This document shows, piece by piece, positions 415 to 19,130 of a stretch of DNA of 21,418 nucleotides. The stretch spans positions 1 through 21,418 of IMG/VR virus record IMGVR_UViG_3300023176_003100, one strand, 5' to 3'. Position numbers and translations under genes: made by a program. The notes under the pieces were generated by a model. It ran no database searches. It saw only the letters and a program-made list of their open reading frames with translations, and had not been told where the DNA came from. Position 1 is the stretch's first letter, and every line of letters starts with the position of its first letter. Source of the DNA: a virus.

Positions 415-648
415 TTATTTTCTTCTATAACTCTTATTACTATCCCTTTTAGCATCAAGTTTTTTTCTTCGTTGAAGCTCTTGATATTTGGTATGTCTTT
501 TAGCTGCAGGTTTTTCATAGTGTTCTCTATTTCTAACTTCCTGTACAATACCTGCTTTTTCACAATCTTTTTTGAATCTTCGAAGTAATTTATCGAATGG
601 CTCGACAAATTTTGATTTCGGATGTATTCTTGGTTTTACACTTGGCAT
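415..648 (-). CDS. rpsU: Phage-encoded ribosomal protein bS21
   Basis: The 77-residue product is clearly bS21, a small-subunit protein that sits near the anti-Shine-Dalgarno end of 16S rRNA and takes part in initiation. The match includes the [18 protein letters not shown] core (residues 16-33), the [11 protein letters not shown] segment and a strongly basic Arg/Lys tail. The bacterial protein is about 70 residues, so this one is full length, with a few extra residues near the N-terminus. bS21 genes are known in marine phages, including pelagiphages; the usual proposal is that they are built into host ribosomes to favour phage messages. A 183-base noncoding leader with several inverted repeats lies upstream, and a small basic gene follows one base later. 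Confidence 0.95.
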
Positions 649-831
649 ATTTTCTCTCTAAAAGTGTATGTTCGCCCCACGCATTACAGCATTCCCGCTA
701 CATACCGATGACACCGCTTTTACACACATCATCTTACCCTTACTGAGTACCCCCATTTTTCCACGGTCTCAGTCAATGATAGTACTTTCATAGGACACAT
801 TACAAATAATACTATCACCCCTAACTAAAGA
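649..831 (-). promoter_or_regulatory. Structured noncoding leader upstream of bS21
   Basis: This is the longest gene-free stretch in the window. It is clearly richer in G+C than its surroundings, especially 670-765. Three inverted repeats line up along it: an 8 bp perfect repeat at 777-784 / 810-817; a 6 bp repeat at 742-747 / 768-773, extended by 3 more pairs across a one-base bulge; and a 6 bp repeat at 666-671 / 700-705 whose loop can pair internally. I see no open frame with a ribosome binding site, no TATAAATA late motif and no convincing -35/-10 pair. It could be an autoregulatory bS21 leader, a transcript-processing site between gp32 and bS21, or an independent small RNA. Confidence 0.5.
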
Positions 832-1734
832 TTAGCTTTCCTCTGCTAATCTTTTGAAGTAGTCCATCGCATCATCACTTTCGGATTCTGTCGAAGTGGT
901 ATCAACTGATGGGACTACAGGTTCATCTGCTACAGATGCAGTATTTACATTTGACCAAGGCACTTCATCTAGGTCTTCTGCAACTGATTCTGCAGTTGAT
1001 GTACTCACACCACCTGAGAGACCTAGCACTCTGTCTAGTTTCTCTTTGAGTTCTTCGTAAGACTTGAACTCACTTGGTGCAATGATTTCTGATAGACTAT
1101 TTAGTGAAGTATAAATTTCACTTAGTCTATTTTCATCTTCAAAAAGTGGTGAAACTGAATCAAATTCTGATTTGTCGTAGTTCCAATAACCATCAACTTT
1201 TCTGATTTTGATTTTGAAGTTCGCACCCTCTCTGAGATCGAAAGGATTGATCGCTTGTTCATCTTCAAATGCAGGTGAGATAGCTTCTTTGAGTTGTTCA
1301 AAGATTTTCTTACCATACTTGTATAAGAAGACTTTTCCCTCATTGTCAGGATTTTTAGGGTCTGAAACAACAAAGACATTAGAGACATAGTGAAGTCTTC
1401 TCTTCTGTCTCCTTGCAATTTCTTTGTTTGCTTCGATACCTGTATTCCATAATTGAGTATTATACTCACTTACAGGATCCTGTTTGTTGAGAGTAGTCAA
1501 AGACTTCTCTATGTACCAGCCACCTGGACCTTGAAAACCGTGATCCCAATATGAGACCCATGGCATTTCTTCTCCTTCTGGTGTGGGTAAAAAACGAACA
1601 ACTGCAAACCCATTACCAGATTTATCTAGTTCAGGTTTCCAATATCTATCGTCTGAGTAGGATTTTGTTTCTCCGCCTGCTTGGGGAGAAGCGGATTCCA
1701 TAGCCGCTCTGAGTTTATCTAATGATGTTGACAT
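832..1734 (-). CDS. gp32: Single-stranded DNA-binding protein gp32
   Basis: The 300-residue protein matches T4 gp32, the cooperative ssDNA-binding protein of the replication fork. Recognisable parts are the basic N-terminal segment (residues 1-20), the core with GFAVVRFLP (42-50), the WDHGFQ region (63-68), RRQKRRLHYVSNVFVV (108-123) and PDNEGKVFLYKYGKKI, then an acidic Ser/Asp/Glu-rich tail for protein contacts. The T4 zinc ligands are His64, Cys77, Cys87 and Cys90; here the His is kept (His65) but the Cys positions read Ser78, Asp86 and Ser89, and the protein has no cysteine at all. The site should therefore not bind zinc. A strong AGGAG lies 6 bases before the ATG. It follows gp59 and the GNGPS gene. 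Confidence 0.95.
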   Translation of the reverse strand: MSTSLDKLRAAMESASPQAGGETKSYSDDRYWKPELDKSGNGFAVVRFLPTPEGEEMPWVSYWDHGFQGPGGWYIEKSLTTLNKQDPVSEYNTQLWNTGIEANKEIARRQKRRLHYVSNVFVVSDPKNPDNEGKVFLYKYGKKIFEQLKEAISPAFEDEQAINPFDLREGANFKIKIRKVDGYWNYDKSEFDSVSPLFEDENRLSEIYTSLNSLSEIIAPSEFKSYEELKEKLDRVLGLSGGVSTSTAESVAEDLDEVPWSNVNTASVADEPVVPSVDTTSTESESDDAMDYFKRLAEES

Positions 1735-13918: not shown

Positions 13919-14616
13919 TTAATCACTTTTACTAATAATGTATTTTTGGTAATTCTATTGTTTCCTTCTTTTTCTTTTGATCTAGGGATTTCATCCATAA
14001 ATTTAGAAGCAATAACATTACCACCTGACACCAGTCTATCAAGTAATTTCAAATCTGTCAAGGTCTTTTCTGTACATTTATAGTATCCTATAATCTTTGA
14101 TCCCTTGACTGATAAACCTTGTGATTCAAAACAGGTCATCTTCTTACTTGCAGTGTTATAGGTAAATAACATTCTTGCTCTTATTATTTCTATTGGGTCT
14201 ATTGATTCGTACTTAGCGAATCTTTGTTGATATGGTAATCTTTTGACTAGTTGTGCAGGTGTTTTGATTCTTACCTTACGAACTGGTTTGTATTCATCAC
14301 AAAATTTCTCTATGTCTTTCTCTATATTTCGTAAGAACTGTATAGCATATTTCTTTTGGCTATTAGATAGAAAACTATAGGCTTCTTCCAGTTGTTCACA
14401 ATCTTCTTCATTCTTTAGTTCGTACACCATTTCGTTTGTATAACCTTTCATGTACTGTACAACTTTACCAGAATAGTCTAGTTGTCTAAGATACTTGTAC
14501 ATTGAGAATGAAGACTTTTTATTGTCCATCAGTTTGTCAATTTCGAACTCGACATGATCCATGGCCTCAAGTGCCTTGTTTCTCATTCTGTCTTGTATGC
14601 TAATCTTCTGTGTCAT
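13915..14616 (-). CDS. Conserved T4-like phage protein (233 aa)
   Basis: The longest frame would begin with TTG at 14619, but the ATG at 14616 is preferred. The protein has helical, charged stretches (for example NEEDCEQLEEAYSFLSNSQKKYAIQFLRN), basic VRKVRIKTPAQLVKRLPYQ (about 115-134), then IDPIEIIRARMLFTYNT and FESQGLSVKGSKIIGYY, ending RITKNTLLVKVIK. I recognise the 'GLSVKG' and 'ITxxTLLxKV' patterns from a conserved T4-like phage protein without known function. It starts 17 bases inside the RimK gene and its stop overlaps the RNase H start (ATGA). Confidence 0.78.
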   Translation of the reverse strand: MTQKISIQDRMRNKALEAMDHVEFEIDKLMDNKKSSFSMYKYLRQLDYSGKVVQYMKGYTNEMVYELKNEEDCEQLEEAYSFLSNSQKKYAIQFLRNIEKDIEKFCDEYKPVRKVRIKTPAQLVKRLPYQQRFAKYESIDPIEIIRARMLFTYNTASKKMTCFESQGLSVKGSKIIGYYKCTEKTLTDLKLLDRLVSGGNVIASKFMDEIPRSKEKEGNNRITKNTLLVKVIK

Positions 14617-15988
14617 CAATCTTATTAGTCAACATAAATTTGCGAGCAGGATTTATCATCAGGTTTGCTCGTCTCATAAAGTCACGGTTTGCTAAAAACG
14701 GTATCTGATTTCTTTCATCAAGTGATACCTCAACCTCGTAAGTCGTATTTAGAAATTTTACTTCCATAAGAACAACTGGTCTTTTCTCAGCAGGTTTAAT
14801 AAGTTCGACATATCTGTGTAATGGTTTTTTGTGTTTGGTTCCATTTGTTTGCCAAGTGACAACTTTACCTTTCACTTCAACTTCTGTAGCGTGTAATGCA
14901 CAAGTAGACACATTGTTACCTGTGTCCATCTTTACAGTCATTTCATCGCCCTCAACTTCGATAGTCTCAAGTACGCCACATTCCATTGCTGCCTTCTTCC
15001 AGATATCTCTGCTCATAAATTCATTCAATACTAATTCTACTACATCTTCACCAATAGCTTTGGATAAACCTTCAGTTCCTGGTGAATGGTTGACTTCGAT
15101 AATATATGGATCACCTGTCTCTCTATTCTTTGCAGGCATGAAGTCAACACCAACCCACTGACCGTTTACAGCTTTAGAAGCTTTTAGAACTGCCTCTTCT
15201 TCTTTTGGTGTGAGTTTTATTTTTTCTGGTACAGAACCTTGTGATACATTTGACCTGAAGTCATTGATCACCATAGGTCTCTTCATTGCACCTATAATCT
15301 TTTTATTGACAACTACTGTTCTTACATCATAGTCTTGTTCTATGTATTCTTGGAGTAATAGGTCTGCATAAGGATCAATTTTATTGATCAACTGAACTGT
15401 AGACTGCAATGATCTTTCCGTTTCGATTAGGAGAACTCCTACACCTTTTGCACCTTGTAGTGTTTTGAGTACCATAGGGAAGTCATTATCTAATGCCTCA
15501 TGAGCACGATCAACTGCCTTTGGTTCATCACTTGGTATGAGAACAGTTTTAGGTTGGGTCATACCAACTTCTTGGAGTCTTATGTATGTTCTAAACTTAT
15601 CTGAACAAACTTCTATTGTTTCACGGAAGTTATTAACAGATGCACCGTATCTTTCTAATTGTGAGATAAGGTCTAAGTAAGAATCTTTTGCAGTGACATT
15701 ACCACGAACAAAGACGATTGTATCTTCATCTAATTCAAAACCCTTTTCATCACCTTCATTATGTAAGCTTACAATACCTGAATCTGGATCTCTTTCGATA
15801 TATGCACCAGAGATACGACAATTGTAAACTTCATGTCCCATTTTCTCTGCTTGTTTGGCAAGTTTGAATGATGTGGACTCTTCTCTTTGTTTTATGGGTC
15901 TCTGCGCGAGAACTACCAAGCGAAAAGGATTATCTTTCACTTCTTCTTTTAGTAATATATCGCTAAAGCTTTTTATCATTGTTGTCAT
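14600..15988 (-). CDS. rimK: RimK-like ATP-grasp ligase fused to a retropepsin-like (RimB/PF05618) domain
   Basis: The 462-residue protein has a RimK-type ATP-grasp enzyme in residues 1-330: MVLKTLQGAKGVGVLLIE (172-189), LLQEYIEQDYDVRTVVVNKKIIGAMKR (211-237), FRSNVSQG (244-251), VGVDFMPAKN (279-288) and IIEVNHSPGTEGL (296-308). RimK adds glutamate to the C-terminus of ribosomal protein bS6. From about 335 comes a second domain with MDTGNNVSTCALHA (354-367, the DTG of retropepsins) and IPFLANRDFMRRANLMINPARKF (429-451), as in the RimB/ATP-dependent protease family (PF05618). In bacteria the two are separate neighbouring genes. It is probably translated by coupling; no clear Shine-Dalgarno precedes it. 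Confidence 0.88.
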   Translation of the reverse strand: MTTMIKSFSDILLKEEVKDNPFRLVVLAQRPIKQREESTSFKLAKQAEKMGHEVYNCRISGAYIERDPDSGIVSLHNEGDEKGFELDEDTIVFVRGNVTAKDSYLDLISQLERYGASVNNFRETIEVCSDKFRTYIRLQEVGMTQPKTVLIPSDEPKAVDRAHEALDNDFPMVLKTLQGAKGVGVLLIETERSLQSTVQLINKIDPYADLLLQEYIEQDYDVRTVVVNKKIIGAMKRPMVINDFRSNVSQGSVPEKIKLTPKEEEAVLKASKAVNGQWVGVDFMPAKNRETGDPYIIEVNHSPGTEGLSKAIGEDVVELVLNEFMSRDIWKKAAMECGVLETIEVEGDEMTVKMDTGNNVSTCALHATEVEVKGKVVTWQTNGTKHKKPLHRYVELIKPAEKRPVVLMEVKFLNTTYEVEVSLDERNQIPFLANRDFMRRANLMINPARKFMLTNKIDDTED

Positions 15989-17075: not shown

Positions 17076-17390
17076 TTATATATCAAATTGTACACTTACA
17101 CCACAACCACAAGAAGACTTTTCTTTTGGGTTGATAAATTTGAAATACTCGTTGAGTCCTTCTTCGACAAAATCTAAAGTCATTCCGTCTAAGTATGGTT
17201 GACTAAGGGGATCGATAACAAACTGGAATCTTCCATAATCTATAACTAAGTCATCGTCATTTGGAACAATAGCATCTTTGAATACATATTCAAATCCTGC
17301 GCAACCACCACCAGTCACACCTAGTCTAACAAACTCTACTTTCTTTTCTAATAATTTTTGTATAGCTATATCTGTTACTTCAACTTCCAT
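17076..17390 (-). CDS. A-type Fe-S cluster carrier (HesB/IscA/ErpA-like)
   Basis: The 104-residue protein has the three conserved cysteines of A-type Fe-S carriers: Cys30 in VTGGGCAGFEY (25-35) and Cys94/Cys96 in SSCGCG (92-97). The length and order match IscA/ErpA/HesB, which receive Fe-S clusters and pass them to target enzymes. Such genes recur in marine T4-like phages. In this phage, likely recipients include the radical SAM/SPASM enzyme, though that link is inference. The gene overlaps the carbamoyltransferase C-terminal gene by 11 bases and is coupled to it. Confidence 0.93.
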   Translation of the reverse strand: MEVEVTDIAIQKLLEKKVEFVRLGVTGGGCAGFEYVFKDAIVPNDDDLVIDYGRFQFVIDPLSQPYLDGMTLDFVEEGLNEYFKFINPKEKSSCGCGVSVQFDI

Positions 17391-17994
17391 TTTCTTGCAT
17401 GTTGTGTAAATCTTTTGGTTTTATACACTCAAAAGGTATTTCTATGTCCTGATCTTTCGGTACATAAAGATAATTTATTTCACAACGATTGCAGGTATCA
17501 ATAGCATCGTATATAGTTTCTACTAATGCCTCACCACCTAGATTGAATGAAGTATTGAAGATAATAGGAACATCTGTTATCTTATAAAACGCCTCTATAA
17601 GTTCGTAATAGTTTTTGTTCTGTTCTCTTGTGACTGTCTGAATACGGCAAGTGCCGTCTGCATGAACTAAAGATGGAATATCTCTATATGCCTTTTCTTT
17701 TGCCTGAATAGCAAAGGACATCCAAGGAGACTCTTTCAGTTGCAACATGTGAAAGTATTCATCAGCATGTTCAGCAAGAATTGATCCTGCAAATGGCCGA
17801 TAGTCTTCTCTTCGTTTGATCGTGTTTACTATTTGTTTTGCTTCGGGATGCCTTGGATCAAAAAGAATAGAACGATTGCCCAATGCTCTTGGACCCCACT
17901 CTGATTCTCCTTGGAACATAGCAACGATCTGCTCTTTGTCAATGATAAGGTCTAAGACCATATCTAATTCTCTAACAACTTGTGTCAAAATCAT
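17380..17994 (-). CDS. Carbamoyltransferase C-terminal domain protein (split gene)
   Basis: The 204-residue protein is the C-terminal domain of NodU/TobZ-type carbamoyltransferases (PF16861): GESEWGPRALGNRSILFDPR (29-48), KRREDYRPFAGSIL (59-72), VHADGTCRIQTV (109-120) and FNTSFNLGGEALV (146-158). The enzymes normally carry this after an ASKHA-type N-terminal domain in one chain. Here the N-terminal domain is the gene immediately upstream, and the two overlap by four bases (ATGA), so they are probably made in equal amounts and form one heterodimer. The missing piece is not simply lost: both halves look intact. Confidence 0.92.
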   Translation of the reverse strand: MILTQVVRELDMVLDLIIDKEQIVAMFQGESEWGPRALGNRSILFDPRHPEAKQIVNTIKRREDYRPFAGSILAEHADEYFHMLQLKESPWMSFAIQAKEKAYRDIPSLVHADGTCRIQTVTREQNKNYYELIEAFYKITDVPIIFNTSFNLGGEALVETIYDAIDTCNRCEINYLYVPKDQDIEIPFECIKPKDLHNMQENGS

Positions 17995-19130
17995 GATTCA
18001 TTCTCCAATTTTCTTTTCAACCATAATGCAGCTCCTAATGCTGTACCACCATCGTGTGGTATTGGATCAACAAAGAACTCATAATCAGGATTTGCTTCTA
18101 AGTACTTGTAATTATTTGTACAGTTCAATGAGTAACCACCAGACAAGAGAATCTTGTTGATGTTTGGTATCAACTCTTTAGCCTTGTCAATAATGTTGAG
18201 AGAGTTTGCTAATGCTTCCTCTTCACATTGTTGAGCAACGGTGAATTGATTGAAAGTGTTTGGTCTAGTTGTACCATAACTTGCCATGCCCATAACTTTA
18301 CCAGATGCTCTGCCTTCTTCATCACAACCTAAGGCTGCTGAGAGTTGAGAGAAGTTCATACCACTAGATGGTTTACTTGAAAAGATAATCTCTGCACCGT
18401 CAATCTCTTTGACATCATCTTCCCAACACATGAGACAATCGTATGTCATGTTAGGAAAATCATAGCTTTGGTCATTCAATGTTCGATTGTTCGATAGTCT
18501 TTGCCATTTGATTTCAGGTACTTTGCCTGGTACACAATGAAAGATTGTTTCCATTTCTTGGTAACCTGGATATTCATCGAAGAATCTCATGGCACCACCA
18601 CCATCCCAAACGATTGCTATACACTCTTCTCCTTTCCAAGGTGATAGTGCATGAACACACTCTGCATGGTATAAATGGTGTTGACTCTGATCAAGTGTAT
18701 AACCCTCATCGTCTTTGTATAATTGTTTTGAAAGAGTTTCAGCAATGTATTCATCTGCACCCTCTTCAAGAGTAAAGGTAAATGAACCCTCATACTTCTT
18801 TGCTAATTCTTGGAGACGAACTGTTGATAACTGTGCATCTCGCATGTCAGCACAAAACTCTTCTGCTAAAATTCTGTTGTATACCAAACTGTCTTTATCG
18901 AAATGCAGTTTGACATTTCTCCTATCGAATGTAGTAAAGATCAGGTGATCTGGTTTTTCTATGTTTCGTTGTGCTACACATTGAAGACCATAATCGTCAT
19001 CACGAAGCAATCTTGGATCCCAATACTTGTGCCTGCGAAATCTTGCTTCGTCAAAAACAAAGTCTATGGTATCGTCTGTGATTTGTGCGACACTTGTGTC
19101 GTGTGAAGTGTTTACTCCTAAAATTCTCAT
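17991..19130 (-). CDS. Carbamoyltransferase N-terminal domain protein (split gene)
   Basis: The 379-residue protein is the Kae1/ASKHA-like N-terminal domain of the NodU/TobZ carbamoyltransferase family (PF02543): MRILGVNTSHDTSVA (1-15), QHHLYHAECVHALSPW (about 150-165), VWDGGGAMRFF, GKVMGMASYG, and LLSGGYSLNCTNNYKY and IPHDGGTALGAAL near the end. It would activate carbamoyl phosphate with ATP and pass the carbamoyl group to a hydroxyl. Phage enzymes of this superfamily are reported to act on 5-hydroxymethylcytosine in DNA, but no hydroxymethylase is in this window, so the substrate is open. AAGGAATATATT precedes the ATG. The stop overlaps the C-terminal gene as ATGA. Confidence 0.93.
   Translation of the reverse strand: MRILGVNTSHDTSVAQITDDTIDFVFDEARFRRHKYWDPRLLRDDDYGLQCVAQRNIEKPDHLIFTTFDRRNVKLHFDKDSLVYNRILAEEFCADMRDAQLSTVRLQELAKKYEGSFTFTLEEGADEYIAETLSKQLYKDDEGYTLDQSQHHLYHAECVHALSPWKGEECIAIVWDGGGAMRFFDEYPGYQEMETIFHCVPGKVPEIKWQRLSNNRTLNDQSYDFPNMTYDCLMCWEDDVKEIDGAEIIFSSKPSSGMNFSQLSAALGCDEEGRASGKVMGMASYGTTRPNTFNQFTVAQQCEEEALANSLNIIDKAKELIPNINKILLSGGYSLNCTNNYKYLEANPDYEFFVDPIPHDGGTALGAALWLKRKLENES

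Follow-up and report, generated by a model that had tools for sequence, protein, structure and literature searches.

The noncoding gap between the genes for gp32 and the ribosomal protein bS21 in IMG/VR virus record IMGVR_UViG_3300023176_003100 (positions 1 to 21,418, a stretch of 21,418 nucleotides (nt) referred to here as the window) carries a structured RNA that, in our judgement, probably belongs to a new family of phage noncoding RNAs, which in marine T4-like phages lie immediately 3' of gp32, are encoded on the same strand as that gene and are likely to act in trans late in infection. The members form three types. A covarying fold is conserved in all of them, with hairpins P0 to P4 in the clade of the window (type I) and a P3-P4 core in every type, and the linkage of the RNA is fixed to gp32, not to bS21. 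A first-pass annotation of the window had put forward a phage bS21 autoregulatory leader, with a separate small RNA as another option. The structured noncoding RNA is strongly supported, while the leader is not, since the RNA stays with gp32 as the downstream gene changes. An RNA that adjoins a ribosomal protein gene need not be the leader of that gene.

In the window, gp32, a single-stranded DNA binding protein (835-1734, minus strand; PF08804, 4e-38; phrog_224, 3e-106), is always followed directly on its 3' side by the RNA, while bS21 (415-648, minus strand; PF01165, 2e-15) is the downstream neighbour in the window clade only. The first-pass annotation had described the 183-nt gap between them (649-831, minus strand) as free of genes and as holding three inverted repeats, and both descriptions are correct: no gene is called there, and the repeats lie at 777-784/810-817, 742-747/768-773 (with inner pairs as well) and 666-671/700-705. 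The local rise in G+C that it reported is real (a peak of 0.44 against 0.31-0.37 toward bS21) but only modest, since the gp32 gene itself also reaches 0.44. The minus strand folds at -50.6 kcal/mol, compared with -37.9 +/- 3.45 kcal/mol for shuffled sequences, so that the comparison with shuffled sequence proposed in that annotation comes out in favour of the fold (z -3.7; z -2.1 for the plus strand).

The fold consists of five hairpins, all on the minus strand, of which P0 and P3 are additional to the three inverted repeats. P0 (827-854) overlaps the end of gp32: its 5' arm (854-845) is made of the last gp32 codons, its 3' arm (836-827) is formed from sequence at the stop codon and beyond it, and the arms are complementary at 10 of 10 positions. 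This hairpin is present in all 72 distinct type I members, with a mean z of -4.7 when the coding arm is held fixed. P1 (777-817; arms 817-810 and 784-777) has AUGUGUCC in its loop and shows changes on both sides in each of its 8 pairs. P2 (742-773; arms 773-768 and 747-742) contains the invariant segments CCGUGGA (766-760) and GGGGG (754-750); 97.8% of its cells are paired, two pairs change on both sides and five never vary. The junction between P2 and P3 (733-741) has a conserved A-R-GGG-N-AAG in the type I alignment, and a similar RGG-N-AAG junction is found again in types II and III. P3 (707-733; arms 733-727 and 713-707) has an invariant GCGG (717-714) in its loop and both-sided changes in 7 of 7 pairs. 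P4 (666-705), with outer arms 705-700 and 671-666 and inner pairs 698-697/675-674, has both-sided changes in 7 of 8 pairs and contains the conserved sequences CGGG, GCUGUAA and GGGG. A resemblance of P4 to helix 45 of 16S rRNA is an impression by eye only. On the 3' side of P4 a C-U-U-U-U tail (660-664) probably marks the 3' end of the RNA, judging from its sequence; relatives in which bS21 has its own promoter generally have a longer U run here.

The compensatory changes that the first-pass annotation had suggested looking for in relatives are present in an alignment of 28 diverse type I sequences. When stacked pairs are sought without guidance, P3, P1, P4 and P2 come out as the top four helices, and RNAalifold gives the same ones. 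In the named structure, 93.9% of cells are paired and 24 of the 31 base pairs change on both sides. Its covariation score is 0.571, compared with 0.199 for shuffled alignments and at most 0.105 with the partners slid, although the slid-partner control is not fully independent, because the structure was derived from the same alignment. Unpaired invariant columns number 38 in type I, 22 of them G, and runs of three or more G occur several times in every type, usually about five times; together these features suggest a compact G-rich core or binding surface. A coding explanation is rejected, since type I has no conserved reading frame, as the noncoding assignment had anticipated: the longest ATG frame across the RNA span can be as short as 2 codons or as long as 55 in that type. 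A promoter in the type I P1 loop is not established, the best TATAAT match scoring 4.97 against 4.32 in shuffled sequence.

Type I was assembled from a bS21 search, which gave 34 contigs all arranged gp32-[176-230 nt]-bS21, and from a search with the P2 motif (CCGUGGA...GGGGG...AGUANGGG), which gave at least 120 contigs; combined, the two yield at least 90 distinct sequences, three of which (L086, L119 and L124) are false pattern matches. The P2 motif helped to define this set, and its conservation there is partly built in; the gp32 searches are free of the motif. Types II and III were found in this way, by a gp32 profile search in which no RNA pattern was used, and their gp32 is about 57-61% identical to that of the window. 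The RNA directly follows gp32 in all 87 distinct type I sequences among the matches listed, and a divergent RNA directly follows it in 50 type II and III contigs; every long contig that carries the RNA has a single copy.

The gene beyond the RNA varies, being bS21, a methylase followed by bS21, another small gene or a convergent gene. The first two arrangements are those of type I, among the matches listed. In type II the next gene is usually that of a small basic protein (WHGGKGSK), which in type I follows bS21, and otherwise another gene. In type III it is convergent in most contigs, while some contigs end too early to tell; in L184 the convergent gene is tape-measure-like, and 2 nt separate its stop codon from the end of the RNA match. 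In all six long type II and III contigs tested, bS21 is about 2.3-2.7 kilobases (kb) upstream of the RNA, beyond gp32. The types were folded separately, because a joint MAFFT alignment of all of them misaligned the GCGG loop. Type III has its own covarying fold of 40 pairs, 22 of them with both-sided changes, and the RNAs of L325-L328 are seemingly reduced to P3 and P4.

Types II and III share a further feature, a putative late promoter in the form of a sequence motif. The late promoter of T4 is TATAAATA and that of cyanophage S-PM2 is NATAAATA (PMC2984593). TATAAATA occurs within 40 nt after the gp32 stop codon, before the RNA, in 50 of 50 type II and III contigs, the background in the rest of these loci being 0.0042 per 40-nt bin; its offset from the stop codon varies from 9 to 35 nt, and the contigs are related to each other. 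In these two types a late RNA of about 150-190 nt would start at this promoter and end after P4. In the window clade the RNA would instead be made by read-through from gp32 and end, or be processed, after P4. The RNA probably acts in trans late in infection, and its conserved G-rich loops would provide the working surface. The fixed position behind gp32, together with the promoter motif in two lineages, suggests a conserved function in late infection for an RNA family that has unusually strong structural evidence and occurs in several lineages of marine T4-like phages.

A leader that controls bS21 in cis in the window clade, by autoregulation or as a riboswitch, is very unlikely, even though 10-33 nt, with no promoter among them, separate P4 from the start of bS21 in most type I members and all 18 RNA-bearing long contigs tested encode bS21. 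In type I the distance between the RNA and the following start codon has a bimodal distribution. In 14 of 14 long-gap members (L034, L035, L036, L037, L071, L074, L075, L080, L081, L085, L120, L136, L142 and L147) a sigma-70-like promoter with 9-12 of 12 matches and a 17-18 nt spacer lies between the RNA and bS21; for L136 the gap was computed to an upstream ATG and the promoter was recognised by eye. Since just a few bases lie between the end of the -10 element and the bS21 start codon, messenger RNA (mRNA) from this promoter would be nearly leaderless. The RNA may be part of the bS21 transcript in short-gap members, while in long-gap members a promoter follows it. In the clade with L044, L063 and L088, a DNA methylase gene (PF01555) separates the RNA from bS21; the start codon of the inserted gene in L063 (2924-3811) is as close to P4 as that of bS21 is elsewhere. 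Such a leader requires a constant location of the RNA 5' of bS21, which is absent from the methylase clade and from the six type II and III contigs with bS21 upstream of gp32, types in which the RNA faces a convergent or unrelated gene. A switch in which the 3' arm of P0 pairs with the bS21 start region is also rejected, this pairing being no better than chance (mean z -0.07). The methylase insertion, the separate bS21 promoter and the different place of bS21 outside type I all speak against a bS21 leader. An element that works as DNA, either a replication origin or a cruciform, is extremely improbable. Covariation alone cannot tell RNA from single-stranded DNA, and gp32 binds single-stranded DNA, but G-U pairs greatly exceed A-C pairs in type I (22 to 1 in P3, 26 to 2 in P3 and P4 together) and in type III (77 to 10), which is the signature of a sense-strand RNA as the conserved molecule.

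A role as a 3' untranslated region (UTR) of gp32 mRNA is unlikely. In such a role P0 and P1-P4 would shield the 3' end of the transcript, fix the place of processing close to the stop codon and act as a terminator, with no function in trans. In its favour, the RNA is always directly after gp32, P0 contains gp32 codons, U runs follow P4, and in T4 the gene 32 mRNA has unusual stability and an RNase E site close to the stop codon (PMC3014915). This role does not account for the promoter motif between gp32 and the RNA in types II and III, and the invariant loops and multi-helix core are more than a terminator or stabiliser requires; outgroup phages do with small, simple hairpins behind gp32. The promoter and the invariant loops make a role in trans appear preferable to a purely 3' UTR role. 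A more specific proposal, that a late phage RNA with a core rich in G runs acts in trans on the translation machinery of the infected cell together with phage bS21, is quite unlikely. Since bS21 is encoded in all of the long RNA-bearing contigs tested, within a few kilobases and on one side of gp32 or the other, a functional link in trans is conceivable. E. coli ribosomes with pelagiphage bS21 were reported to be inactive, and it was suggested that they may require additional factors (Mizuno et al. 2019, PMC6375957).

Several points weigh against a single family of discrete trans-acting RNAs, in addition to the possible 3' UTR role. Both the late promoter and the ends of the RNA are predictions from sequence. 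TATAAATA is found in none of the 87 type I members in the corresponding stretch, among the matches listed, which weakens the case for a discrete RNA in the window itself. The types differ from each other in P1 and P2. A model of type III (R2) finds type II in the correct place at E 2e-13 to 2e-4 but does not detect type I, and a model of the type I P3-P4 core without the gp32 tail (R3) gives 15 matches in 265 kb, all at type II or III RNAs, with a best E of only 7e-4; the link between type I and the other types therefore rests on position and shared core motifs. The full type I model (R1) finds L323, L325, L329 and L330 at E of about 4e-6 to 3e-5, aided by gp32 tail sequence; E-values obtained by short calibration are approximate. 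The types have in common an RGG-N-AAG junction, a P3 loop containing GCGG and a P4 with CGGG...GGGG, and L074 and L080 have P4 sequences intermediate between types. Types I-III are likely to be homologous, while for P1 and P2 homology is not proven.

The search of Rfam that the first-pass annotation had recommended matched no family: Rfam 15 at the gathering score gives no match for the window and six type I loci, a permissive search gives only chance matches to small nucleolar RNAs (E 1.8 and worse), and nothing is found at E 0.05 for six type II and III loci. Searching INPHARED phages by blastn with the RNAs of all three types gives either no match or chance pieces at E of about 7-8, and no description of such an RNA was found among the open-licence PubMed Central (PMC) papers searched. 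The RNA was not found in HTVC008M, Mosig, P-RSM1, P-SSM4, S-MbCM100 or AG-345-L05, and R3 did not confirm the weak R1 matches of 12.9-16.8 bits in Melnitz and AG-345-E15. Without the RNA, bS21 is still encoded in HTVC008M, Mosig and Melnitz. In Melnitz and its relatives (L156, 2377-2500; L191; L187) gp32 is followed by a long 3' UTR of another kind, in which segments that look paired precede a strong terminator and to which neither R1 nor R3 gives a convincing match. A scan of GTDB genomes finds the RNA only in L401 (5394-5604), a 121-kb contig binned with a Sphingobacteriales metagenome-assembled genome, which is probably a phage contig. All carriers of the RNA are uncultured phages, with contigs of up to about 146 kb.

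Structured RNAs are known from phages in general; what is new here is the RNA family, which no known family matches. The manA and wcaG motifs are likewise structured RNAs from marine metagenomes that are also present in T4-like phages, in their case of cyanobacteria (Weinberg 2010, PMC2864571). They are regarded as regulatory and are linked to metabolic and exopolysaccharide genes (PMC2864571), whereas the gp32-linked RNA has no Rfam match and lies behind gp32, in many cases with a convergent gene next to it. Cyanophage S-PM2, a marine T4-like phage, likewise has a short noncoding RNA, CfrI, but CfrI is about 225 nt long and antisense to psbA and a homing endonuclease gene (PMC2984593), while the present RNA is intergenic behind gp32 and has a covarying fold. 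In T4, too, RNA structure is tied to gene 32 mRNA, with the RNase E site near the stop codon, but the known structured operator is a 5' pseudoknot (PMC3014915), whereas here the structure is 3' of the gene and, in types II and III, is preceded by a late promoter motif. Autoregulatory leaders of ribosomal proteins resemble the arrangement in the window, a structured RNA upstream of a ribosomal protein gene, but this RNA is linked to gp32, the gene on its other side, and bS21 is elsewhere in types II and III. The stable RNAs C and D of T4 are also small phage RNAs, and they are set apart by their position beside the transfer RNA cluster rather than gp32.

Elsewhere in the window, a RimK-like ATP-grasp protein is encoded at 14600-15988 (minus strand; PF08443, 2e-33). 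In bacteria RimK modifies a ribosomal protein, and the window phage may thus carry two ribosome-directed genes, this one and bS21. At 17380-19130 (minus strand) a carbamoyltransferase is encoded in two adjacent frames, with its N-terminal and C-terminal domains in separate open reading frames.
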